A DNA stretch of 64,000 bases from Candidatus Cloacimonadota bacterium (GTDB taxonomy: Bacteria > Cloacimonadota > Cloacimonadia > Cloacimonadales > Cloacimonadaceae). The notes beneath the pieces are model-generated. The model searched no databases, was not told the DNA's origin, and was given only the letters and a program-made list of their open reading frames with translations. Positions 22,036-38,321 of the stretch are shown here, one piece after another (position 1 is the stretch's first letter; the number at the start of each line of letters is the position of its first letter). The translations under genes were made by a program, and so were the position numbers. The DNA is taken from the NCBI GenBank assembly GCA_018433885.1, contig JAHDQK010000009.1:1-64000 (forward strand). The letters run 5' to 3'.

Positions 22036-22083
22036 CGGAAATCAAGCTCCCCTTTTTCTTGGACATTGTCCATTGATGTAATT

Positions 22084-22218
22084 GTTGAGTTCCAAATGTT
22101 GGTGAAAACTCCAAACCATTGTTACTCAAGTTATTTGAGAACACTTTAATGTCCTCGTTTCTCAAATTCTGTTTTCGGCCAAGCGACCAATTACATTATT
22201 TCCAATCTCTCTCCAGCG
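22084..22218 (-). repeat. Dispersed repeat, copy 2
   Basis: Reverse-strand counterpart of the segment at 6-138. Read on the minus strand it continues from an open frame fragment (FQKELDRWREIGNNVIGRLAEN, ending in a stop) and then, after a frame change, RNEDIKVFSNNLSNNG. This looks like a decayed coding element, possibly phage-derived given the lysozyme fragment just upstream. No family was recognised. The two copies are about 22 kb apart in opposite orientation. Confidence 0.6.
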
Positions 22219-22317
22219 GTCAAGCTCTTTTTGAAAAGGCTACCGTGCGTGACGGATTGAAACTCTGCGGAGGAGGTGTAGCGGACGGAACAGGGCTTCT
22301 ATCCACCACGACTTGCC

Positions 22318-22572
22318 TCAAATGGTAAAGCCCTTATCTGGTTTTCTCTGATTCTTTTCTTTGGCTCTGAAGGATAGCGTTTGCCACTGATCGCAATCGT
22401 ATAGATCTCTCTCCAGCATCGCATAGGCTTCTTTCTGGGAGATACTCCGGTCATCAAGATTGCGGCCGATACCGATAGTCAGTTTGCCTGCAGTGCAGCG
22501 GTATGGCTTCAGCCTAAGACCCTCGTGTCTGACTAACTGAGCTTTGATTCGGTTCATCAATGCTTCGGTCAT
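22318..22572 (-). pseudogene. Truncated phage-type lysozyme (GH24)
   Basis: About 84 residues from the ATG at 22572 (AAGGAG upstream). The first 60 residues match the N-terminus of T4/P21-type endolysins: LVRHEGLRLKPYRCTAGKLT with catalytic Glu in HEG and Thr in KLTIGIGRNLDD, then ISQKEAYAMLERDL. The usual remaining 80 or so residues of the domain, including the helical lobe, are missing and replaced by an unrelated polar tail ending KPDKGFTI. It is probably a prophage relic, lying directly to the left of the BREX operon. It could be expressed but should not be a functional muramidase. Confidence 0.6.
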
Positions 22573-22744
22573 GCTATCTCCTTGATCCATATGTGATCAT
22601 TGATCCGGAGCCAGGAAAGCACTCCCCTGTATGCTGACAAATCAGGATGTATCAGGATACCAAGGAGATTTTGCTTGCCTTATTTGAACATCTATTTTCT
22701 ATGGTTCAGACAAGGAAAGAAGTAATAAGGAAAGATTTGAATAG

Positions 22745-25099
22745 ATGTATGAAGCTGTATGGGATGAGAAGAAGAACTCTATCATCCTTCTCGAAAATAC
22801 GATAGACCATGAGAGTGTGTCACCAAGACCGGTGTTCTTTGAAGAACTCGACTTATTGGGATTTGCTGATAAATGGGAATATCCAAGAACAAATGCACCA
22901 CTATTATGGGCTTTAGGTAGAGATTACTACTATAAAGGTGTTCTTGTCGCACGAGTAACAGGTGGCGATTTATATCAAAAACCTGATATCGATATTATTC
23001 ATAATGGGCGGTTAGAGCCAGTTGACCTAGCTCACACAATTCGTAGTAATGCCGACATACTGAACAATCTTGTTGGGGAGGCATTAGAGTTCATTCGCCG
23101 AGTTCAGAAGGACTACAGCAAGCATCCGTCTCAGCTAACCGTAGCCTTCAGCGGTGGAAAAGACTCTCAGGTAGTTCTTGACCTTGTTTCTAGGGTTGTT
23201 AACCCAGATGATTACATTGTTATTTATACAGATACTGGTATGGAAATTCCATTTGTGGAAGATACAGTAGATTACACTATTAAATCATATCGATCTAGGT
23301 ATCCGGCATTTAACTTTGTTACTGCTAATCCCTCATCAGATACCGATAAATTGTGGGAGCTGTTTGGCCCTCCGAGCCAAAAGATCAGATGGTGCTGCTC
23401 AGTATGCAAATCTGTTCCATTTGTCCAAACTCTTAGAAAGCATGTTGATAATAAAAGGTTGGCAAATACCATTGTATTCGAAGGTGTAAGAGCAGAGGAA
23501 AGTAGTCGTAGGAACAAGTATAAACGATTAGCTTCAGATGTGAAACATATAAACCTGATAAATGCAAGACCAATCTTTGAATGGAACACTACAGAGGTTT
23601 TTCTATATTTGTTCCTTAGAGAAATCGAAATCAATAAAGCATATAGGCAAGGTATGTGGAGGGTGGGCTGCTCAGTATGCCCATTTGCCTCAAAGCCAGC
23701 AAACTACTATCTGGGATTACTTTTCCCGGAGCAAACTGAGAAATTTGTTAAGCACATACACAAGCTAGCCATCGCACGTGGGATGACAGACTCAGAAAAA
23801 ATTAAGACATATATCGCAGATAGGTCTTGGGCTGGACGATCCGGAGGGATAGGCGTTGATAATCTTGGTGTGTCTAACGACATAGTTATTTCAGCAGAAT
23901 CATATAAGGCTGTCCTTAGATGTCCTAGAGAGAATCTGCTCGAGTGGATGAAAACTTTGGGCACCTTATCAATCACAAAGAGAACCGACAGAACAGAAGT
24001 TGAGATATTGGTACAAGGTGTCTATATCCAAGTTGTTATATCACAAGTTAATGACTCGACTATGATGTTGACCTCTAAGAACATTAATGAATACCCTGTG
24101 ATTAGAGGATTGCTTACAAAAATTATCAACAAAGCTACATATTGCGTTCATTGCGGTCTTTGTGAAGTTGAATGCCCAATACAGGCAATAACGCTTGAGC
24201 CATCTTTGAAGATAAATGAAACGTGTATACATTGCCACAAGTGTAGCACGTCGATAGATAAAGGTTGTATTCTTGCTCAGTCTTTACATTTACCTTTAGG
24301 AGGAGAAAAAATGAAACGGAGTTCGACAGGTTTGGATCGTTATAAGAAGTTTGGCATGAGAGATATGTGGGTAAAATCGTTTTTATCTGATCCTGAAAAT
24401 TGGTTTGAGACCAATACTCTAGGGTCTGATCAGATACCGTCTTTCAAAAGATGGCTTAAGGACGCAGACCTCTTAACTAATAGTAACTCGCCGACTGAAT
24501 TAGTCGGGTTATTAAGTAATTGCGACGATAATGACGTAGTCTGGCAGATAATATGGGTGAATTTGTTCTATAACTCTCCTATCGTTAATTGGTATGTTTC
24601 GTTGCCTTTTGATCACTCCTACACAAAAAACGAACTGCTTGAGCTACTTCTAATTGAGTACCCAAGTATGGCCCGTTCAACATTGAATAATCCACTAAGT
24701 GCATTACTAAACACTTTTGACAACAGCCCTCTTGGAAGTCTGTTTCGAATAGGAGAACTCGAAAAGAAAGGCAGATCAGTTGAAAAGGTCACAAAACGTA
24801 AGCTTATGCAAGTCTATACTGCGACAATGATTTATGCGCTATATAAATACGCAGAGATGAATAACAAATATTACCTAACAGTAAGGGAATTAATCGATTC
24901 GAAATCAACTGGTAGTCCGATAAAGATATTCGGGCTTCAGTTATCGAATTTTAGCGAAGTACTTAGGGGTATTCAAGAATTTGACAGTGATCTTGTTAAA
25001 GTTGATCTAGTCGCAAATCTCGATAATGTTAATTTAAACAAGGACTATGGTTCAATCGGAGCTTTGAACAGATATTTCTCTAGGAGTAGGCAGTCATGA
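22745..25099 (+). CDS. brxP: BrxP: PAPS-reductase/DndC-like, ferredoxin and DUF4007 fusion (type 4 BREX)
   Basis: A 784-residue protein in three parts. Residues about 95-350 form a PP-loop ATP pyrophosphatase domain of the PAPS-reductase/DndC kind, with SGGKDS at 136-141, RWCCSVCK at 215-222 and GCSVCPFASKP at 308-318; the cysteines could hold an iron-sulfur cluster. Residues about 465-505 are a two-cluster ferredoxin module (CVHCGLCEVEC and CIHCHKC). From about 523 on is a DUF4007-type helical domain (SFKRWLKDADLL, PTELVGLL, VVWQIIWVNLFYNSP). BrxP marks type 4 BREX, where it appears in place of the PglX methyltransferase; DNA thiolation is suspected from DndC similarity but unproven. It is first in a four-gene operon and ends in an ATGA overlap with brxC. 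An internal AGGAGG and in-frame ATG at 24311 may yield the DUF4007 part alone. Confidence 0.88.
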   Translation: MYEAVWDEKKNSIILLENTIDHESVSPRPVFFEELDLLGFADKWEYPRTNAPLLWALGRDYYYKGVLVARVTGGDLYQKPDIDIIHNGRLEPVDLAHTIRSNADILNNLVGEALEFIRRVQKDYSKHPSQLTVAFSGGKDSQVVLDLVSRVVNPDDYIVIYTDTGMEIPFVEDTVDYTIKSYRSRYPAFNFVTANPSSDTDKLWELFGPPSQKIRWCCSVCKSVPFVQTLRKHVDNKRLANTIVFEGVRAEESSRRNKYKRLASDVKHINLINARPIFEWNTTEVFLYLFLREIEINKAYRQGMWRVGCSVCPFASKPANYYLGLLFPEQTEKFVKHIHKLAIARGMTDSEKIKTYIADRSWAGRSGGIGVDNLGVSNDIVISAESYKAVLRCPRENLLEWMKTLGTLSITKRTDRTEVEILVQGVYIQVVISQVNDSTMMLTSKNINEYPVIRGLLTKIINKATYCVHCGLCEVECPIQAITLEPSLKINETCIHCHKCSTSIDKGCILAQSLHLPLGGEKMKRSSTGLDRYKKFGMRDMWVKSFLSDPENWFETNTLGSDQIPSFKRWLKDADLLTNSNSPTELVGLLSNCDDNDVVWQIIWVNLFYNSPIVNWYVSLPFDHSYTKNELLELLLIEYPSMARSTLNNPLSALLNTFDNSPLGSLFRIGELEKKGRSVEKVTKRKLMQVYTATMIYALYKYAEMNNKYYLTVRELIDSKSTGSPIKIFGLQLSNFSEVLRGIQEFDSDLVKVDLVANLDNVNLNKDYGSIGALNRYFSRSRQS
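24298..24313 (+). promoter_or_regulatory. Strong internal ribosome-binding site and ATG within brxP
   Basis: AGGAGGAG at 24298-24305 is followed after five A residues by an in-frame ATG at 24311 (codon 523). It falls exactly at the border between the ferredoxin module and the DUF4007 domain. It is a better ribosome-binding site than the one at the brxP start (GGAAAGA, 11 bases from the ATG). A separate 262-residue DUF4007 protein is therefore likely to be made. Confidence 0.55.
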
Positions 25100-28000
25100 G
25101 ATACTCAGATATTCTATCATTAAACGATCAATTCATTGATACATTCGACCTGATTCATGAATCAGAAAGTTATTGGAAAACCTTTGTGCCCACGGAACGC
25201 TTTATAGCCATATTGAAAGCTGTAATAGATTCGATTGATACAAAAAGCCCGAAAGATCGAAAATCATTTTGGATTATAGGCTCATATGGCTCAGGAAAAT
25301 CTCATGCATCATCAGTAGTTAAGCACTTGTTATCTGATGACATAGAATCGATAGACGATTTCCTATCCAGTCGGTTTTCAAACAATGTACAACTTACATC
25401 GAGACTTCGAGATCTTCGAAAGAGAAAGAGGCTTTTCCCAGTAGTAATCAAAGGCAGTAGCGGAATATCTGATTCAAGGGATTTTGCATTCACAATACAG
25501 AAAGCAGTCGCAAAAGCCCTAGAGAATTCAGGTATTAATATGGTCAGAGAGACAGAATTCTCAAAAGCTATCAAGTACATAACAAACAACAAACTCCATA
25601 TTGACTGGGATAAAGTCATTGAGAGTAATGAAGAGCTGAGAAGCGTCGTGAGCAATTCTAGTGATCTTATAAAGAAACTTGAGAATTATGATTCACAGGT
25701 ATTGAAGCTATGGGAGAAAGTATCAGATTTTAAACTCACTTTCGAAGACAATATTGAATACTGGCTAGGCGAGACACAACAAATTCTTAAATCCGAACAT
25801 GGATACTCAGGCTTGTTTATCATGTGGGATGAGTTTACAAGTTTACTTGAGATGTCTGATAGTGGAAGCTACTTGAGTATTCTGCAGAACATCGCAGAGT
25901 TATCGAAAGATTTGGAACACGAAGTTTATCTCTACGTTATTAGTCATAGAAGACCAGAACAAACTCCTTTATCGCCTTCGGATATTAAGCATCTGCAAGA
26001 AAGGATCAAAGATTTTGATTATTCTATGGAGCCAATCACAACATATCAGATTATGTCCACAGCAATTCAAAGAAATGATCTAGCCAGGTGGGAAGAGCTA
26101 AAGAACCGGCATAGTGATGATATTGGTAGTCTGGTAGATAGCATTCTTGATGGTAGTAGTGCGGAGATTAAACGAAGCCTGTCAGATTTGTATCCAATAC
26201 ATCCGTATTCGGCATATTTATCTACTTACTTTGCACGAACTATTGGGTCAAGAGAGAGGAGTATATTTAACTTTTTGCATGATGAAAACCGTGGTTTTGT
26301 CAAGTACATAAAGACAAATCCTCAGGATGAGCTTAATGACTTTCTAACAGTCGATCTGATATTTGACTATTTTCTGCCAGAACTTGAAAAAATGGACGAT
26401 GTCAACTCGCTCTCTATTCTTGGTAATTACAATACATATAGTGATTTAGTAAAAAAGAAAGATAACAACTATATGAAGATATACAAAGGATTGTTGTTGT
26501 TGAACCTTTTCGTTAAAACACTTAAAGTAGCTGATGGCATAAGTTCATCTCTTCTAAAGCCAAATGAGGAGAATGTTTCGCTCATGTTTAAGGGATCAGA
26601 GGTAGCAAAGAGTGTCACTGAGTGTCTTGGGTTTATAGATCATGAGCACATAATTGTGAAAAATCCAAGTGGCTTGTACGAAATTGGTAGCTCACGAATA
26701 CCATATAACGAAGTACAAGAAAAATATGATGAGCTGCTTAAACAAACCACTGATTTTACCGACTTAGCAGATAATAGCCAATTGTTTGATATATCAAGAA
26801 TGCTACTCCAGAATGTGTTGAGAGAAACGGCTGATTCTCTCACGCTTGAATGCCTAATCGTGCCCGCAAGTATTAAAAAACACGAATTAATGCCGAAGAT
26901 ATATAAAGCACGAAAGAGAACTTACAAAATTCTCCACGTTGTGTTTATTGGTCTTCATCAAGCAGAGTTGATAGAGGCTCAAGAACTTGTAAAAACCCTT
27001 GATTGGCAGTCTGAACTGGACAGACCACCTTATGTGTTTACCATACTAGATACTGTGTTTAGCACTGAAGACTACAAGAAAGTGCTTCACTACAAAGCTT
27101 ATGAGCTTGTAGCTCAAAGTCAAAACCTCAGTTATGACGAGCTATCAGGATATAAGAAACAACAGTCTTTGATTATCAATAACTGGATCAAGCAGCTATC
27201 TTTTGGTTACGTCACAGTAATCACTCAACTTCCTTCTAGCATTCTAGTTGAGCAACGTATTCCGTTGAACAAATATGATGAATTCATCAATAATAACTTG
27301 TCTCTTCAGTTTTTCTATCTGGGGCCTGAGGTACTAAGCAGTAAAAACAATAAAATAGCCACTTCAACTATGTGGAAGAGACAGACATCTCGAAAGGCAG
27401 CCCAAGCAATATTGCTGTCAGATAATAAAAAAGAATTTGAAAGCCGACTTAAGTCATCTTACGCCTATCTGTATTTATTCTACTATACCCAGAAGGGTGA
27501 AGATGCACTGAACAACGATTTTTCAGTGTCACAGGGATTCTCTGAGCACATAATATCGAAGACTAAGCTTACGTTTGACAAGATTATGAACGAGAATACT
27601 GGGAACGTCGTTAACATTGGTAAGAAGTTTAAATTCTTATCTGAGGCACCTTACGGATATTATCCGTGTACAGTATTTTACGGTATGCTAGCTTGGCTAT
27701 TCAAACCATATTTGGGCAAGGTTTACTTGAAGGATAGCGCTAAAGTTGTAAATGCTCAGGACATGATTGAACTTATTGTAAATTTCTTTGAATACGCATC
27801 AGAGAATGAGCAAGTGGATAGTAAGAAACTGACAATCAGAATCGGATCTCCCCACGAGGACAAATTAATCAAACTGCTATGCGAAATTTTTAATCCAAAA
27901 CAGAAAGATAGTTTAAAGCAGATAGTTTGGGACATTGCCCTAGATTATGTAAAAAACAAGTTTCGATACCCTCTGTGGATCGCAAAATATCACGATATAG

Positions 28001-28629
28001 CACAAGGTAACGAAGCAGTAATAAGTGCTTTGGACTCAATCATTGAGTTATTCAAGGCAGTCAAAGACGAAGAATACTCTAGTGAGTTTGTTCACACGAC
28101 GTATAATAAAATATCCTCAACACAAACTGATCTCAGAATTATATTCAATGACACCAAAAATAACCCGGAGCTTTTCAAAAAGTGGCTTGAGTTGAAGGCA
28201 GTAGATAATGTTTCGGAACTAGATATTGATGCGATTGAAGAATACATCATCAAGAACTCCGGTGAAGAGCTAGTTTATACCTGCGAGGACGAGGTTACCA
28301 CCCACAATAGAGTACTTACATTCCTTTTGCAGAAAGCCAGCAATGGCGCTACTAATGGTGGTGTTAACACATCAAATGGCAACGACAATACTACAGGTGA
28401 CAATGGCCCTGATATGGGTGACACTGCAAATGGTGATTCTGAAGATAACAACGATACAGTTGATTCAGTTCAAGAGTATAATTTAGCGACTATGAGGATA
28501 GTAAATAGCCTTACAAATGCTGGATGGGACCCTCAGGCAATACTCATCATAGAGAGAATACTATCATCTGTTCCTCAGACCATAGAAGTGGCTATCAAGG
28601 CTTTACGTGAAGAAGGAATCGATGTATAA
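25096..28629 (+). CDS. brxC: BrxC/PglY: large P-loop ATPase of BREX
   Basis: A 1177-residue AAA-like ATPase. The Walker A motif IIGSYGSGKSHASSVVKHLL is at about residues 60-79 and the Walker B GLFIMWDEFTSLLE near 239-252. FVPTERFIAILKAVIDSI precedes them, as is usual in BrxC/PglY. The C-terminal third contains an Asn/Gly/Thr/Asp-rich low-complexity linker (about residues 1080-1130) followed by a short helical end. BrxC/PglY is the universal ATPase of BREX defence systems and works with PglZ. The start overlaps the brxP stop as ATGA, and the stop lies inside the beginning of pglZ. Base composition is clearly more A+T-rich than the flanking chromosome. Confidence 0.9.
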   Translation: MRYSDILSLNDQFIDTFDLIHESESYWKTFVPTERFIAILKAVIDSIDTKSPKDRKSFWIIGSYGSGKSHASSVVKHLLSDDIESIDDFLSSRFSNNVQLTSRLRDLRKRKRLFPVVIKGSSGISDSRDFAFTIQKAVAKALENSGINMVRETEFSKAIKYITNNKLHIDWDKVIESNEELRSVVSNSSDLIKKLENYDSQVLKLWEKVSDFKLTFEDNIEYWLGETQQILKSEHGYSGLFIMWDEFTSLLEMSDSGSYLSILQNIAELSKDLEHEVYLYVISHRRPEQTPLSPSDIKHLQERIKDFDYSMEPITTYQIMSTAIQRNDLARWEELKNRHSDDIGSLVDSILDGSSAEIKRSLSDLYPIHPYSAYLSTYFARTIGSRERSIFNFLHDENRGFVKYIKTNPQDELNDFLTVDLIFDYFLPELEKMDDVNSLSILGNYNTYSDLVKKKDNNYMKIYKGLLLLNLFVKTLKVADGISSSLLKPNEENVSLMFKGSEVAKSVTECLGFIDHEHIIVKNPSGLYEIGSSRIPYNEVQEKYDELLKQTTDFTDLADNSQLFDISRMLLQNVLRETADSLTLECLIVPASIKKHELMPKIYKARKRTYKILHVVFIGLHQAELIEAQELVKTLDWQSELDRPPYVFTILDTVFSTEDYKKVLHYKAYELVAQSQNLSYDELSGYKKQQSLIINNWIKQLSFGYVTVITQLPSSILVEQRIPLNKYDEFINNNLSLQFFYLGPEVLSSKNNKIATSTMWKRQTSRKAAQAILLSDNKKEFESRLKSSYAYLYLFYYTQKGEDALNNDFSVSQGFSEHIISKTKLTFDKIMNENTGNVVNIGKKFKFLSEAPYGYYPCTVFYGMLAWLFKPYLGKVYLKDSAKVVNAQDMIELIVNFFEYASENEQVDSKKLTIRIGSPHEDKLIKLLCEIFNPKQKDSLKQIVWDIALDYVKNKFRYPLWIAKYHDIAQGNEAVISALDSIIELFKAVKDEEYSSEFVHTTYNKISSTQTDLRIIFNDTKNNPELFKKWLELKAVDNVSELDIDAIEEYIIKNSGEELVYTCEDEVTTHNRVLTFLLQKASNGATNGGVNTSNGNDNTTGDNGPDMGDTANGDSEDNNDTVDSVQEYNLATMRIVNSLTNAGWDPQAILIIERILSSVPQTIEVAIKALREEGIDV

Positions 28630-31000
28630 GGTATTCAACTCTATAGATGATCTAATGCTGGAGATTATCGAAGAATCAAAGATCAGCGATATGGCGAATC
28701 GTAGATACCCTGTCAGGTTTATATTTTCTGAAAACATGACCCAGTACAGAGAATTGGTCATTGATTTATGCAAGATAACGGACAACCATATCGATTTGAG
28801 TGCTTTGTGTAACGCTGACGTGTTTCCCACAAAACAAGATATATTCACGAAGATTGAGGATTTACTGTCTAATCCTAACTCGGTAATATATCCTATCTCA
28901 GAAGTACTAAGATTTTATCAAAATAATGAGTTTATATCCTTCTTCAACTATCTTATGGATAGCATTGAAAATCCACCAACTGTCAACAATAGGATTTACT
29001 TACCTTTATACGGAATCTGGACACCCTTTCAAAACTTCGTACTTCAGGAATTTTCCAGGAAGCATCAGTGGGCTCCAATTTGGAAGTTACACAATGACGA
29101 TGTAACTATGTCAGATATATATCGTGTCACATTTCCCGTAACTAATGATCCTAAATTTATAACCAATGCACAAGCATGGCTTTCACTTTGGAAAAACGAC
29201 TACGAAAGTAGATATTATTCTACTTCAGCGAATCTGAACTATTTAGCAAAGCAGTTCTTGCCAGATGAGGTCTTCATATCTTCTAACGAAGTCAGTAATT
29301 ATCGTGATCTGATTCAATCACTTTTCAATGTAGTAATTCCATTCCAGTACAAAACAAAAGATTTTGAGTATTGGGTAGACTTGTATGGTACCTTCCTAAG
29401 GTCACCCCAGTCAATTGCTCAATTCGACTTTGATAGCTACATTAGCAAGAGGTTTGAATATAGCCTTTTAGACCTAAGCCAGAGATCATTTATACAGCAT
29501 TTTTTGAAACTAACTGGTGCATCGGAAAAATGGTTGTTAAGCAATTGGTACCAATCGAAATGTAATGGAGATGACACGCATGACAACTTCCGTCTTTGTC
29601 TTGAGTCTCTTTCTGAATATTCGGATAATGAACTGATTCACAACATCTGGGTATACGCTTTTCAACAACCTGGTAGTAAACGGTGGCTACACGAGAGATA
29701 CAATCTATTAACTTTTATTCACAAAGAATTGGGCAAACCAACCGATGAATTCGAAAGCCAAGTTAGTTCCGAACTTGATAAGCGAGTCGATTTTGTGGAT
29801 AGTAATCCTGATGTTCTTACGGGACTTCTGATTTGTGAATCACTTTATGTGTTAAAAAAACTGCGACAAGACGCATCCTTTATCAAATCTCCTGTTTTTC
29901 GCCGTAGATTTACAATCCTGTTTGAGTATTTAAACTGGGATGGATTCGATTTCATTTCCAAGGGTTGCAACAAATGGCTTACAACATATTTTAAAGAATA
30001 TTGTTTGGGTAAGCTTACTTGGAAGCGACAACCTGAGATCGACAATATCCTGAGCAAAGTAAATTGCGATGCACAAGGTCTATATGAATGGTACTACAAG
30101 CAACAACTTCCTGACCATTCTAACGAACATGACGATGTATACTGGGTTGATTGCCTTGGAGCAGAATGGACACCATTGTTACTGCATCTAATCAAAGAAC
30201 TAGACGTAGACAATAAGTGGTTTGTTGAAAGTGTAGATATTAGACGAGTATTTCTGCCCACGATTACTGATGTTAATAGAATACCCGATTCTCTTCACAT
30301 ACTAGATCTCGATAAATACATTCATAGCAATCAGATATCTAATAATATGAGCCAGGTATTACTAGGACAAATATCAATACTTCAATCGATTGTTAGGCAG
30401 ATATTGGCTAGTTCTAGTGATTCTATTGTAATCAGCTCTGATCATGGCTCATCGTATTTGTGTATTAAAGAATTCGTTGATAACAAGGGTCTAGGTATGT
30501 CTGATACTGAACATGGTGGCCGCTATAAATGGATTGAAGACGGCAGCGACTTCGCTTCTGATCAGATAAAAATTCTCCACGTAGTAGAATCTCCACATAT
30601 GCACGATAGAAGGTGTTTGATAGCGTTGAAGCATGTTTCTCTTGGAAATAGGCCACCGTTCGAAGCCCATGGGGGGGCAACTCCAGAAGAAATTCTAATC
30701 CCATTTATCAAACTTAGAAGAGTCAAAAAACAGCGATTGGTAGTTAAACCGACTCGTTTCCTTGGAGTTACAGCGAATAATCCAGTAATTGAACTCACTA
30801 TCCAGCCAAAACCTTTAGGGATCCCTTTCATATTAGTGCAAGGAAATAGGTTTAATATGACTTTTAATCAAGATCATTGGACATGTAGTTTCAAAGGATT
30901 AAACTCAGGCCACTATGGTGCAACTTTAATCGCTGATGGTCAGAACTGTGACATCGAGTTATTAATAAAATCAGGTATAATACAGGAGGAGTTGTTTTGA
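28622..31000 (+). CDS. pglZ: PglZ: alkaline-phosphatase-superfamily protein of BREX
   Basis: About 792 residues. The N-terminal 480 residues are helical and unrecognised by eye. From about residue 505 the alkaline-phosphatase fold of PglZ appears: WVDCLGAEWTPLLLHLIKEL (metal-site Asp at the start), IVISSDHGSSYL (Asp-His-Gly), GRYKWIEDG, and a HGGATPEEILIPFI ending typical of PglZ. PglZ is the signature protein of BREX. I place the start at the ATG at 28622, five bases after AAGGA; a GTG at 28607 would add five residues. It overlaps the brxC stop by eight bases. The C-terminal 80 residues form an Ig-like beta domain. Confidence 0.9.
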   Translation: MYKVFNSIDDLMLEIIEESKISDMANRRYPVRFIFSENMTQYRELVIDLCKITDNHIDLSALCNADVFPTKQDIFTKIEDLLSNPNSVIYPISEVLRFYQNNEFISFFNYLMDSIENPPTVNNRIYLPLYGIWTPFQNFVLQEFSRKHQWAPIWKLHNDDVTMSDIYRVTFPVTNDPKFITNAQAWLSLWKNDYESRYYSTSANLNYLAKQFLPDEVFISSNEVSNYRDLIQSLFNVVIPFQYKTKDFEYWVDLYGTFLRSPQSIAQFDFDSYISKRFEYSLLDLSQRSFIQHFLKLTGASEKWLLSNWYQSKCNGDDTHDNFRLCLESLSEYSDNELIHNIWVYAFQQPGSKRWLHERYNLLTFIHKELGKPTDEFESQVSSELDKRVDFVDSNPDVLTGLLICESLYVLKKLRQDASFIKSPVFRRRFTILFEYLNWDGFDFISKGCNKWLTTYFKEYCLGKLTWKRQPEIDNILSKVNCDAQGLYEWYYKQQLPDHSNEHDDVYWVDCLGAEWTPLLLHLIKELDVDNKWFVESVDIRRVFLPTITDVNRIPDSLHILDLDKYIHSNQISNNMSQVLLGQISILQSIVRQILASSSDSIVISSDHGSSYLCIKEFVDNKGLGMSDTEHGGRYKWIEDGSDFASDQIKILHVVESPHMHDRRCLIALKHVSLGNRPPFEAHGGATPEEILIPFIKLRRVKKQRLVVKPTRFLGVTANNPVIELTIQPKPLGIPFILVQGNRFNMTFNQDHWTCSFKGLNSGHYGATLIADGQNCDIELLIKSGIIQEELF

Positions 31001-32442
31001 ATCCACTTGACGTGAAAATATGCGAGTATTTCCCAGATGAATCTGTCCTTAAGATCAAGAGCAGGTACAACGCTTTTTCTAGTAGGAATCTACCGTCATT
31101 CATCAAAGATTGGCTAATCAAGAAGTATACTTCCTCAGATGGCTCATTAGATGTGGACGGCTTAATTAGCTTCATGGATAATCATATACCGAGTAAGGAT
31201 GAAAGCATACTCGTTAAGCTAAAAACACAGAAGGAACCAATAAAAATATTATCCAGATTCAATATTCAGGTTGATCTAAAAAATGACTTGTTTAAATTCG
31301 AGATCCCAGACCACGGTATCTCGTTAAATATTGGTATCATACCCGATTATGTTTTCAAGAAACACGAAAAGTACCTATCAGACGGAGAGCATTGGGGCGT
31401 TATCACTTTAGTATATGTACCCCCTATGGGCAATGTCAGTGGGCATGTACAACTTATTGACTATAAACCATTCCAACCATATCAGGTAGACCTAGAATAC
31501 TTCAAATCAGCAAGGAAAAATTTCACCGTGTACGAATGGATTGACTTACTTATAAGATCGATGGAGTATAATCCTGATAATAAAGATACACAAACAGGTT
31601 TTAGCTCAATCGACCGAAAACTACTTTTTCTATCTCGGTTATTGATTTTTGTTGAGCCTAACCTCAACTTGATAGAACTTGCCCCTAAGGGCACAGGAAA
31701 ATCATATGTATTTGGCAATCTAAGTAAATATACGTGGATGTTTAGCGGAGGAGTGGTATCAAGGGCAAAACTCTTGTACGATATTGGCAGAAGAACTCCT
31801 GGTATAATTGAAAACTACGATTTCGTGACTTTTGATGAGATAGAGACGATAAAGTTCGCTAATGAAGATGAGTTATTAGGAGCGTTGAAAAACTACCTAG
31901 AAAGTGGTCGTTTTACGGTTGCTAATTATAGCGGATCATCTGAAGCGGGACTTATGATGTTGGGGAACATTTCTTTATCACCGGACTGGCGTCCATTATC
32001 AAATAGATACTTTGTATCATTGCCCAGTTTCTTTCAATCTTCTGCACTCATGGATAGAATTCATGGATTCATTGAGGGCTGGAAACTTATCAGGCTTAAT
32101 CAGGGTCTTATAGTAAACGGATACACTCTTAATGTAGAGTATTTTAGCGAGATATTACACAAGCTGAGGAATTGTTCCCATTATAGTCAAATCGTCTCAG
32201 ATCTAATTCAAATCCCACAAAATTCAGATACAAGAGACGTTAAGGCGATAATCAAGTTAGCGACAGCGTACCTTAAGCTGCTTTTCCCTCATGTTTCTAA
32301 TGCCTCGGAGATTGATAAAGAGGAATTCGATTTATTCTGTCTTGCTCCAGCTATCGAGAAGAGAAAGATCATTCGGGAGCAAAGGTCATTTGTTGACACT
32401 GAAGTAACTACTGAAATGCCAGATATTTCTGTTAAGGCCTAG
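30997..32442 (+). CDS. brxL: BrxL: AAA+ ATPase of the BREX system
   Basis: A 481-residue protein starting with TTG at 30997, overlapping the pglZ stop as TTGA, with AGGAGG seven to twelve bases upstream. The AAA+ core has Walker A ELAPKGTGKSYVFGNLSKYT near residue 229 and Walker B NYDFVTFDEIETI near 270. A conserved segment follows: NYLESGRFTVANYSGSS, then LGNISLSPDW. BrxL forms hexameric rings on DNA in characterised BREX systems, where it is needed for phage defence. The better-known E. coli and Acinetobacter BrxL are about 680 residues and end in a Lon-like protease fold; this one seems to stop soon after the ATPase part. It is the last gene of the operon. No terminator was seen downstream. 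Confidence 0.88.
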   Translation: MNPLDVKICEYFPDESVLKIKSRYNAFSSRNLPSFIKDWLIKKYTSSDGSLDVDGLISFMDNHIPSKDESILVKLKTQKEPIKILSRFNIQVDLKNDLFKFEIPDHGISLNIGIIPDYVFKKHEKYLSDGEHWGVITLVYVPPMGNVSGHVQLIDYKPFQPYQVDLEYFKSARKNFTVYEWIDLLIRSMEYNPDNKDTQTGFSSIDRKLLFLSRLLIFVEPNLNLIELAPKGTGKSYVFGNLSKYTWMFSGGVVSRAKLLYDIGRRTPGIIENYDFVTFDEIETIKFANEDELLGALKNYLESGRFTVANYSGSSEAGLMMLGNISLSPDWRPLSNRYFVSLPSFFQSSALMDRIHGFIEGWKLIRLNQGLIVNGYTLNVEYFSEILHKLRNCSHYSQIVSDLIQIPQNSDTRDVKAIIKLATAYLKLLFPHVSNASEIDKEEFDLFCLAPAIEKRKIIREQRSFVDTEVTTEMPDISVKA

Positions 32443-32453
32443 ATGATTGTTAA

Positions 32454-32693
32454 CTATAAGATGGCTGTCATTGTCCTGCACTTCCAATGAAATGGTGGGA
32501 ACGGAGAATGTACTCCGGAGACACCTACCGGATTCATTTCTGAGTCGTATTCGATCTGCTCGTCTTTGTGGTTTTCTAACAAGGCCATATAATATTTGTT
32601 GATAATGTGATAAGCTGATTTGTCAAAGTGAGAGCAATTTGAAGTTTTCAGTGAGGGGTTACAAAAGTCCAGTGAACGACATTTTTCCTTGAC
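32454..32693 (-). pseudogene. Possible phage capsid-morphogenesis protein fragment
   Basis: A minus-strand reading from about 32693 to 32454 gives about 80 residues ending SPFPPFHWKCRTMTAIL. This resembles the C-terminal PPFHxxCRxxT zinc-like motif of Mu gpF/SPP1 gp7-type head-morphogenesis proteins, with SEMNPVGVSGVHSP ahead of it. There is no start codon of its own, and the upstream part runs into the next gene in the opposite direction. If real it is a decayed phage remnant directly right of the BREX operon. The evidence is a single short motif. Confidence 0.35.
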
Positions 32694-32717: not shown

Positions 32718-33581
32718 GTGTTCATGAACAAAATGGAAAAGAAAACTGAGAAATATCCCGGGTTTATGACGGTTGATGTGGAGGAATACTATCATATCAT
32801 CGGAGTAAAAGGAACACCGCCTGTAACGGCTTGGGACAGTCTGCCGGCCCGGGTGGAGATTGGCTTGAACCGCTATTTTGAGCTTCTGGCGGCTAAAGAA
32901 ATCAAGGCCACGCTGTTCTTTTTAGGCTATATTGCTCGTAATAATCCTGGCCTTGTACGCAGGGCAAGGGAATATGGCCATGAGATTGCATCGCATGGGA
33001 TGTTTCACCGGGAAGTGAGCATGATGAGTTCAAGTGAGTTTCATAAGGATGCGCTGGAATCAAGACTGTTGCTTGAGGATATCAGCGGAGAGGCGGTAAA
33101 GGGATGGCGCAGCCCCGGTTTTCTCATACCCGGAAGCACTCACTGGTTCTTTGAAAAGTTGCTTGAAGCGGGATACAAGTATGATTCTTCCGTGCTGCCC
33201 CTAAAGAAAAGCAGTATGGGAATAATCGGAGGTTCCTTCGCACCGTGTTTTATCAACTGTGCGGGAGGAAAGATATATGAGTTTCCGATTACAGTGGTGA
33301 AGGTCTTGGGGATGAATGTAAGCATGTTTGGAGGTGGATACTTACGCTTTTTCCCCTTGAAGGTGATAGCCCGGATGAAAGATAAGGTGCTGGCACGATA
33401 TCCTTTAACGATTTATATCCATCCGCGGGAAATTGACACTGAGCATCCGCATATCGAGATGAATCCATTAAGAAAGTTCAAGACCTACGTGAACCTTACC
33501 AGCGTTCCGGCAAAGCTGGATATGTTATTGGACTCTGCAAAGTTTATCAGAATGGGGGATTACCTTGACGCGCAAGAGTAA
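32718..33581 (+). CDS. Polysaccharide deacetylase (NodB domain)
   Basis: A 287-residue deacetylase close to the kind found in exopolysaccharide/exosortase loci. FMTVDVEEYYHI carries the catalytic and metal Asp, HEIASHGMFHREV the two metal His, and GWRSPGFLIPG and YDSSVLP the later motifs; the C-terminal part has TIYIHPREID. It removes N-acetyl groups from a surface or exported glycan. The start is taken as GTG at 32718 because AAGGAG lies nine bases upstream; the ATG at 32724 is an alternative. There is no signal peptide, so it may act in the cytoplasm or at the membrane. It overlaps the following methyltransferase gene by 17 bases. Confidence 0.88.
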   Translation: MFMNKMEKKTEKYPGFMTVDVEEYYHIIGVKGTPPVTAWDSLPARVEIGLNRYFELLAAKEIKATLFFLGYIARNNPGLVRRAREYGHEIASHGMFHREVSMMSSSEFHKDALESRLLLEDISGEAVKGWRSPGFLIPGSTHWFFEKLLEAGYKYDSSVLPLKKSSMGIIGGSFAPCFINCAGGKIYEFPITVVKVLGMNVSMFGGGYLRFFPLKVIARMKDKVLARYPLTIYIHPREIDTEHPHIEMNPLRKFKTYVNLTSVPAKLDMLLDSAKFIRMGDYLDAQE

Positions 33582-34236
33582 AACAGAACAGGGAAGGATC
33601 ACTGCCGGATTCTTCGATGCCTATGCCGATGACTTTGACTCCATCTATGGTAGCGGAAAAAACCTGCTACACAGACTTATAAACCGGTTTCTGCGTAAGA
33701 GCATCCGAAGAAGGTTTGAGCTGACTCTGGAAGCATGTGCAGATATTAAAGGAAAGAAGGTTCTGGACGTTGGCTGCGGTCCAGGGCATTACGCGATCAG
33801 CCTTGCCCTGATGGGAGCGGAAGAAGTACTTGGGATCGATTTTGCCAAAGGGATGATTAAACTGGCTGAAGAAAAAGCGGCTCAGAAACGGGTTACTAAG
33901 GTATGCCGGTTTGAAGTGAGGGATTTTTTTTCGATATCTGACAAGAGCTATGATTATGTGATCCTAATGGGCTTTATGGATTATATTGAGGACGCTGAGG
34001 CATGTGTGCAACATGCCATGCAACTCTGTAAAGGGAAAGCTTTCTTCAGTTTCCCTTCTTCGGGAGGATTCCTTGCCTGGCAACGGCAAATGCGCTATCG
34101 TTTCAAATGCCCTCTGTACCTATATGGTTACAAGGATATCGTACGAATATTCTCATCATTTCCAGGCTTACAGTTCAGAATCCGTTCTTTAGGCAGAGAC
34201 TTTTGGGTGGAAGCATGGAATGATGTTTCTATATGA
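33565..34236 (+). CDS. Class I SAM-dependent methyltransferase
   Basis: A 223-residue Rossmann methyltransferase. KKVLDVGCGPGHYAISLALM is motif I, VLGIDFAKGMIKLAEEKA motif II, and YDYVILMGFMDYIEDAEACV motif IV. The C-terminal half (FFSFPSSGGFLAWQRQMRYR) is the variable substrate part. The start is TTG at 33565 with GGGGGA about five bases upstream, overlapping the deacetylase stop, so the two genes form a small operon. The substrate is unknown; a glycan or lipid intermediate of envelope synthesis would fit the neighbour. Confidence 0.85.
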   Translation: MTRKSKTEQGRITAGFFDAYADDFDSIYGSGKNLLHRLINRFLRKSIRRRFELTLEACADIKGKKVLDVGCGPGHYAISLALMGAEEVLGIDFAKGMIKLAEEKAAQKRVTKVCRFEVRDFFSISDKSYDYVILMGFMDYIEDAEACVQHAMQLCKGKAFFSFPSSGGFLAWQRQMRYRFKCPLYLYGYKDIVRIFSSFPGLQFRIRSLGRDFWVEAWNDVSI

Positions 34237-36919: not shown

Positions 36920-37338
36920 TCGGGCGGATCATGGCCATAGATTATGGATCCAAGCGCATTGGAATTGCGTTTTCAGACCCCTTGCGGATGTTTGCCAAAG
37001 CACACAGTGTGGTGGAAAACACTTCTCTTGAAGAGTGTTTGGAAAAAATCCGCGAGCTAGCCAAGAGCCAGCAAACTACTCTCATCGTGGTAGGCATGCC
37101 CTATGCCATCGACGGTAGCCACACGCCAAAAACCCGTGAGACACAAGCTTTTTACGAAAAACTGCAGGGATACATGGATATCGAGGTAATATTCTGGGAC
37201 GAGCGCTACAGCTCTGCGGAAGCCGAGACCGAACTAAAGAAGATGGGAAAAAGCTGGCAGGAAGCCAGAAAAATGGTGGATGCGATGGCTGCGGCGATGA
37301 TCCTGAAATCTTATCTGGAGAATACTGACAGCAAATGA
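36916..37338 (+). CDS. ruvX: Putative Holliday junction resolvase RuvX (YqgF)
   Basis: A 140-residue RNase H-fold protein: IMAIDYGSKRIGIAFSDP with the first catalytic Asp, LIVVGMPYAIDG, WDERYSSAEAE with Glu/Asp, and the C-terminal DAMAAAMILKSYL with the last Asp. The family is implicated in 16S rRNA 5' maturation (YqgF) and proposed for Holliday junction resolution. It overlaps the genes on both sides by ATGA, directly ahead of mltG, a common pairing. Confidence 0.92.
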   Translation: MIGRIMAIDYGSKRIGIAFSDPLRMFAKAHSVVENTSLEECLEKIRELAKSQQTTLIVVGMPYAIDGSHTPKTRETQAFYEKLQGYMDIEVIFWDERYSSAEAETELKKMGKSWQEARKMVDAMAAAMILKSYLENTDSK

Positions 37339-38321
37339 CAAAACTCCGCCTTATCAGCATAGTTGCCATCAGCCTGGTGCTGATCGCCGCCTCCTTTGTA
37401 GCTTTCGAGCTCTTCACCGTGCGTGATTCCACCGAACGCTTGGTAAAAGTGCAAGCTGGGGATAACGCCGGAGTGATCGGCGACAAGCTAAAGCGGGAGG
37501 GCATCGTGCGTAGTTCTTCTGCCTTTAGAATGCTGGCAAAACTGCGTGGGGCGGATCGTTCCCTGAAACCCGGTACCTATGTTTTTGGTGGGCACAGCAA
37601 CCTTTGGAACACGGTTTCCAGATTGGCGGCGGGACACTCCGAAAATATCCGCATTACCTTCCCCGAGGGGCTTTCCATGCATCTCACCTTCCAACGGATT
37701 GCGGATAGCGGCTTGGCGGATTACCAAAGCTTGCAAGCAGCGGCAACGGATACAGCGCTGGTGCGGCGCTTGACCGGATATCCCCTTGCCAGCCTGGAAG
37801 GCTTTCTCTACCCGGAGACCTATCTCTTCCCGATATCGAGCAGTCCGGATAGCATTTTGGCATTGATGACGCAGGAGTTTTTTCGCAAAACAGCCAGAGC
37901 CGGGATAGATATCTGGCAAATTGACGATTTCTACCGGAAGCTGATCCTTGCCTCGATCGTGGAGAAAGAAGCCGGGAATTCGGCAGAACGCCCCATCATC
38001 GCCGGAGTCTTCGATCGTCGTATGCGCTTGGGAATGCCCTTGCAGAGCTGCCCTACGGTGGATTATATCTTGGAAAAAAAAGGTATTCGCAGGGCGGTAT
38101 TGACCAACGCGGATACCCGGATCCCTTCGCCTTACAATACATATCAAAATCCGGGTTTACCACCTACTCCCATCTCCAACCCTCAGGTGGAATCCATACT
38201 CGCCGCACTGAAGCCAGCCGCACACAATTATCTCTATTTCTTTGCGGATAACCAAGGCAACAATGTGTTTAGCGCCAGTTATGAAGAACATCAGCGCTTG
38301 CAACGCAGGATGCGGCTGTGA
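37335..38321 (+). CDS. mltG: Endolytic murein transglycosylase MltG
   Basis: A 328-residue YceG/MltG protein. It has an N-terminal membrane anchor (residues about 7-27), a LysM-like small domain (VKVQAGDNAGVIGDKLKREG), and the catalytic domain with FPEGLSMHL, LEGFLYPETYLFP, LASIVEKEAGN (catalytic Glu), and the signature PSPYNTYQNPGLPPTPISNP. It cuts nascent peptidoglycan strands at the inner membrane and so terminates glycan polymerisation. Starts ATGA-overlapped with ruvX. Confidence 0.94.
   Translation: MTKLRLISIVAISLVLIAASFVAFELFTVRDSTERLVKVQAGDNAGVIGDKLKREGIVRSSSAFRMLAKLRGADRSLKPGTYVFGGHSNLWNTVSRLAAGHSENIRITFPEGLSMHLTFQRIADSGLADYQSLQAAATDTALVRRLTGYPLASLEGFLYPETYLFPISSSPDSILALMTQEFFRKTARAGIDIWQIDDFYRKLILASIVEKEAGNSAERPIIAGVFDRRMRLGMPLQSCPTVDYILEKKGIRRAVLTNADTRIPSPYNTYQNPGLPPTPISNPQVESILAALKPAAHNYLYFFADNQGNNVFSASYEEHQRLQRRMRL

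Follow-up and report, generated by a model that had tools for sequence, protein, structure and literature searches.

We analyzed a 64,000-nucleotide stretch of contig JAHDQK010000009.1 from a Candidatus Cloacimonadota bacterium (assembly GCA_018433885.1; the whole stretch is hereafter the window), which carries a complete type 4 bacteriophage exclusion (BREX) operon at positions 22745–32442, and concluded that a Mu-like transposable phage very probably brought this operon in as lysogenic cargo. The operon is an ordinary BREX-4; what was unexpected is its carrier, a Mu-like hotspot with a large slot, and the initial annotation, made from the sequence of the window, did not recognize the operon as cargo of a prophage. 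The comparisons also make it likely that Cloacimonadota share Mu-like phages with one exchange bay of ~10 kb for complete multi-gene defense systems, that BREX-4 entered this bay at least twice, and that the phage spreads BREX-4 between genera.

The MuF–lysozyme slot of Mu-like phages

The left border of the operon is formed by the 5′ stub of a Mu-like phage lysozyme gene (22387–22563, minus strand; residues 4–62, 73% identical to the intact gene) and by the phage leader upstream of that gene (22564–22672), which lies within an 88.8%-identical stretch (22423–22672) common to the window and a prophage of the complete genome G001; the cargo boundary on this side is at ~22672. On the right, 18 bp past the brxL stop, is the 3′ stub of a MuF-like head morphogenesis gene (32460–32597, minus strand; residues 187–232). 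Short stretches on both sides of the operon recur in its own genome and in relatives, and in G001 the lysozyme and MuF genes both belong to two Mu-like prophages, A and B, whose arms are ~91–94% identical and whose ends are related. Prophage A measures 34.2 kb, each copy has its own 5-bp target duplication (TTCAC and TCTCT), and the shared gene set comprises a phage transposase, a transposition ATPase, terminase, MuF, portal, head protease, and endolysin. Transposase matches to phrog_310 reached 4e-82 and 8e-76 and those of the MuB-type ATPase to phrog_296 reached 2e-21, the carriers being G001, a second genome (G019), and a viral contig. The MuF–lysozyme interval, in contrast to the arms, differs wholly between A and B (type I restriction versus type I restriction with a Gabija-like GajA), and in one complete phage copy it takes up ~29% of the genome. 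Some of the G001 slot cargo looks toxin-like, with PIN- and ImmA-like genes.

Both borders lay on one sequence at 46 loci, namely the window, 19 loci in genomes, and 26 on viral contigs, among which at least four are apparent duplicates (L222/L162, L239/L190, L251/L168, and L265/L170), leaving ~42 distinct loci. Across the 46, cargo length ranged from 3.9 to 10.3 kb with a median of 9.4 kb (9.9 kb in the window), and in 43 the cargo was mainly antisense to the phage genes. Of the 20 genome loci, the window included, 15 encode at least one hallmark protein that matched a defense profile, a count that is a census of proteins of our own choosing and not an enrichment test, and in which two of the 15 positives consist of weak dynamin-like LeoA/LeoBC matches only. 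The types met in the slot were type I, II, IIG, and III restriction, GajA, HerA, caspase-like proteins, dynamin-like LeoA/LeoBC, DndD, and BREX, and the remaining genome loci held an efflux-pump-like operon, ABC- or secretion-like genes, or secreted proteins. Judged by these predicted gene contents, the MuF–lysozyme interval of these phages serves as a variable site, ~10 kb in size, in which multi-gene systems, mainly for defense, are housed.

Several individual slots deserve mention in their own right. Two loci (L166, 9582–19038; L173, 7376–16837) hold what appears to be a resistance-nodulation-division efflux pump operon with a TetR-type regulator. In the genome of the window, contig C67 (L091, 3824–9243) carries a DndD and a DndE-HerA fusion resembling the DndH ATPase, without DndC, in the lysozyme–MuF slot of a decayed Mu-like prophage, together with three small proteins, one of which has an Mrr_N domain. 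A 734-aa protein without a clear family (L097, 175–2379) adjoins MuF in the slot of another genome, G038, and is a candidate defense gene.

BREX-4 itself was found in this slot a second time. The 31.4-kb viral contig IMGVR_UViG_3300022666_000341, which is collinear with prophage A, has as its sole cargo a complete brxP-brxC-pglZ-brxL operon, whose products matched their profiles at 1e-231 (BrxP), 3e-196 (BrxC), 2e-113 (PglZ), and 6e-205 (BrxL). The operon reads in the direction of the phage genes, and its G+C content is 37% in a contig of 50%. Its BrxP, BrxC, PglZ, and BrxL are 36, 30, 26, and 60% identical to those of the window, and this low identity marks it as a separate BREX-4 lineage. 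A scan of the viral collection with the window BrxP and BrxL returned no relative; because the viral BrxP is only 36% identical, this operon came to light through its MuF. GenBank record MT835963.1 (14.7 kb, a human fecal phage record) also contains BrxP-like (33%) and PglZ-like (24%) genes, possibly a phage-borne BREX-4.

The window lineage of the operon recurs in two further genomes. In G019, which belongs to another genus, an intact MuF in a prophage arm with MuA and MuB is followed after 11 bp by the start of BrxL, and a stretch of 959 bp matches the window at 100% identity. In G038, of the same genus as the window, the 100% identity extends over 792 bp of brxP with its lead-in, and the operon lies in a different neighborhood, beside a lysozyme stub. 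A housekeeping protein of the window (37335–38321) is only 68% identical in G038 and 49% in G019; this disparity between identical cargo and a diverged housekeeping protein makes recent horizontal spread of the operon across species and genus well supported at the sequence level, and the differing flanks make cross-contamination between bins less likely.

The type 4 BREX operon

The operon consists of four same-strand open reading frames that overlap by 4 bases (brxP/brxC), 23 bases (brxC/pglZ), and 4 bases (pglZ/brxL) and span exactly 22745–32442, in agreement with the four overlapping genes that the initial annotation had named. Searches with PADLOC, Pfam, and NCBIfam profiles, the check set beforehand, matched all four proteins to BREX families far beyond chance. 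BrxP (22745–25099, plus strand; 784 aa) matched PDLC02510 at 4.4e-244; BrxC, a PglY-type ATPase that is also SspC-related (25096–28629, plus strand; 1177 aa), matched PDLC02472 at 1.9e-166; PglZ (28607–31000, plus strand; 797 aa), which has an alkaline-phosphatase-like core, matched PDLC02542 at 1.3e-104; and BrxL (30997–32442, plus strand; 481 aa), a short form with a TTG start and with BrxL_N and AAA ATPase domains, matched PDLC02505 at 1.8e-198 and TIGR02688 at 4.9e-137. The most specific test of type was the match of PglZ to NF033445 ("BREX-4 PglZ") at 1.9e-128, scoring 430 bits where the curated cut-off is 140 bits. Genes and order (P-C-Z-L) are those of type 4 BREX, with a phosphoadenosine phosphosulfate (PAPS) reductase gene, brxP, standing in place of PglX. 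The profile searches found no PglX at the locus, and the nearest methyltransferase-like gene (33565–34236) is of a small-molecule type. The annotated type is thus confirmed, and brxP-brxC-pglZ-brxL without PglX is, by its gene content, a complete and standard type 4 BREX and a new member of that type.

Within BrxP, a PAPS-reductase (PP-loop) domain at residues ~131–313 is followed by two 4Fe-4S ferredoxin-type cysteine sets (467–508) and a C-terminal region (531–767), the same architecture as described for type 4 BREX (PMC12839542). The first domain matched PF01507 at 1e-29, the 4Fe-4S matches being weaker, and BrxP matched the DndC and SspD profiles at 5e-13 and 2e-10, in keeping with the earlier placement of this protein in the PAPS-reductase/DndC group. 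Residues 531–767 matched a separate BrxP profile, PDLC02511, and may be DUF4007-like by homology. DUF4007, a BrxA/SspB-like component that in type 4 BREX is frequently fused to BrxP, had no direct Pfam match on the window BrxP, and two of four aligned BrxP homologues matched it (best 1.4e-8). Profile comparison of BrxP with SspB-type proteins gave a weak result (E-value 3e-4, probability 40%), and an AlphaFold model of BrxP built from a two-sequence alignment was unusable (mean predicted local distance difference test score of 34).

The motifs that had been read from the window were all present. In the homologue alignments, BrxP showed invariant SGGKDS (136–141), RWCC (215–218), and C309/C312, as well as eight invariant ferredoxin-type cysteines (467, 470, 473, 477, 494, 497, 500, and 508), and PglZ showed invariant D515xxG518xE520, S611DHG614, and H688GG690, so that the putative active sites of both proteins appear intact. 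The P-loops read GSYGSGKS in BrxC and APKGTGKS in BrxL. The G+C content of the operon is 38% versus 49% in the rest of the window; a promoter scan of the operon was uninformative (40 matches versus 34 expected), and no terminators were found.

A second BREX locus of the same genome, on contig C84 (L300, 31–11577), has type-1-like content followed by a PsyrT-like helicase; it comprises BrxC (read for its C-terminal part), PglX (1233 aa), PglZ (823 aa), and a long BrxL (692 aa), and the PglX-type gene of the genome belongs there and not to the type 4 locus.

Proposed mechanism and competing explanations

The simplest objection to phage carriage is that an ordinary chromosomal BREX-4 island happens to lie beside old prophage debris and that its flanks are meaningless. 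The state of the window copy lends this some weight, as only two short phage stubs survive, no phage ends were found near the operon, and lysozyme and MuF fragments are dispersed repeats that also occur beside ordinary genes (for example on contig C79 of the same genome). Further points count against phage carriage: the G019 junction lies <1 kb from a contig end in a draft assembly, where misassembly is possible; BREX-4 in G009, G007, G106, and L008 has no MuF or lysozyme match nearby, from which it follows that the system also lives outside phage; and some slots hold no defense system. Yet each flank of the window operon is the correct one for its side of a single known slot, in the right orientation and at the usual spacing, the same cargo abuts an intact MuF in G019, and an independent BREX-4 fills the slot of the viral contig, which largely refutes a chance neighborhood and leaves it very unlikely. 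The window prophage is dead, having lost most of the phage, including the MuA/MuB-type transposition genes, while the BREX operon is intact.

Repeats surround the remnants. A high-copy dispersed repeat (22083–22392) abuts the lysozyme stub and has copies at many contig ends of the genome; a further copy lies at 1–141 of the window, and the repeat is probably the end of a mobile element. A second dispersed repeat (32585–32674) lies just past the MuF stub and is ~80% identical to sequence on contig C32 of the same genome and on several G038 contigs. A comparison of the two flanks with each other, for direct and for inverted repeats, gave no significant match.

Once resident, the operon would act through a sulfur mark. 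BrxP and BrxC would mark a short motif in the DNA of host and prophage with a phosphorothioate, a host cysteine desulfurase, SspA/DndA-like or NifS-like, supplying the sulfur; PglZ and BrxL would block unmarked incoming DNA, and the lysogen, and hence the resident phage, would be protected against rival phages. Recombination in the conserved arms flanking the slot may in turn let phages swap whole defense systems. The sequence is compatible with a DNA sulfur mark made by BrxP, an idea that the initial annotation also put forward and that had been published before: both PMC12839542 and PMC11931770 present type 4 BREX as a DNA-phosphorothioation system, citing Yuan et al. 2024, the former devoting a section to type 4 as phosphorothioation-based BREX and the latter listing brxPCZL among three phosphorothioate-synthesis families. 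Nuclease activity is reported for type I PglZ (title of PMC12205998).

The operon differs from other type 4 BREX in being Mu-like phage cargo and in lacking a linked cysteine desulfurase, none being found at the operon. Such an enzyme is linked in 56% of taxa, and housekeeping enzymes have been suggested as its replacement in the others (PMC12839542). The earlier proposal that the desulfurase is encoded elsewhere fits the genome, in which a distinct Ssp-like modification set includes an SspA/DndA-type enzyme, and a NifU-like scaffold gene adjoins that of a NifS-type enzyme. The Ssp-like set, on contig C16 (L215, 4663–10920), is a complete SspB-SspC-SspD-SspA series followed by proteins of 760 and 555 aa without an assigned role; with BREX-4, the genome encodes two phosphorothioation-type systems. 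The two systems resemble each other in BrxC and BrxP, which are related by profile to SspC and SspD. For type 4 BREX in general, PMC12839542 gives DUF4007 as the SspB-type domain and names BrxC, the PAPS reductase, and DUF4007 as the only parts in common with Ssp, with PglZ and BrxL setting BREX-4 apart. A Dnd system, with DndC beside DndD and DndE, was not found at the window locus; the initial statement that dndA, dndD, and dndE are absent holds for the window but not for the genome, which has DndA-, DndD-, and DndE-like genes elsewhere.

It is unlikely, in our judgment, that the operon makes no phosphorothioate mark of its own, with BrxP acting on a base or a tRNA or only reading marks made by the host Ssp set. 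The ferredoxin-like and C-terminal regions that BrxP has beyond the stretch shared with DndC would suit such a role, as would the complete Ssp set in the same genome, but the homology of BrxC and BrxP to the Ssp modification proteins SspC and SspD and the assignment of phosphorothioation to type 4 BREX in PMC12839542 and PMC11931770 speak for a mark made by BrxP itself. Quite improbable, too, is that the operon serves mainly as a maintenance (addiction) module of the phage and not in defense: its carrier is a mobile element and the PIN- and ImmA-like cargo of G001 would agree with addiction, but every core BREX protein is intact and retains its conserved active-site residues, and the other cargos are mostly restriction systems.

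Comparison with known hotspots and implications

Defense hotspots of 2.6–3.2 kb are known from P2-like phages and P4 satellites, where BREX and type I restriction are said to be absent (PMC9122126). Those hotspots and the slot described here alike consist of a single variable site, flanked by conserved phage genes, at which different anti-phage systems are found, whereas here the phage is Mu-like, its hosts belong to another phylum, and a slot of ~9.4 kb takes complete BREX and type I restriction operons. Mu-like phages of Pseudomonas likewise have variable inserts that include immunity-related genes (anti-CRISPRs), although these are spread over nine mostly single-gene regions (PMC4378225) and not gathered in a single large slot for whole operons. 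Within the literature read, the search returned nothing relevant on BREX in Mu-like phages or on prophage defense cargo in Cloacimonadota.

A transposable phage lineage that carries whole large systems provides the patchy spread of BREX-4 with a concrete vehicle and, if this reading is true, phage-borne spread of systems of BREX size would be a regular route and not an exception. It also raises the question of how a phage brings a self-marking defense into a naive cell whose chromosome is unmarked. The clean boundaries of the cargo offer an easy route to further defense systems, including unknown ones, in uncultured bacteria.

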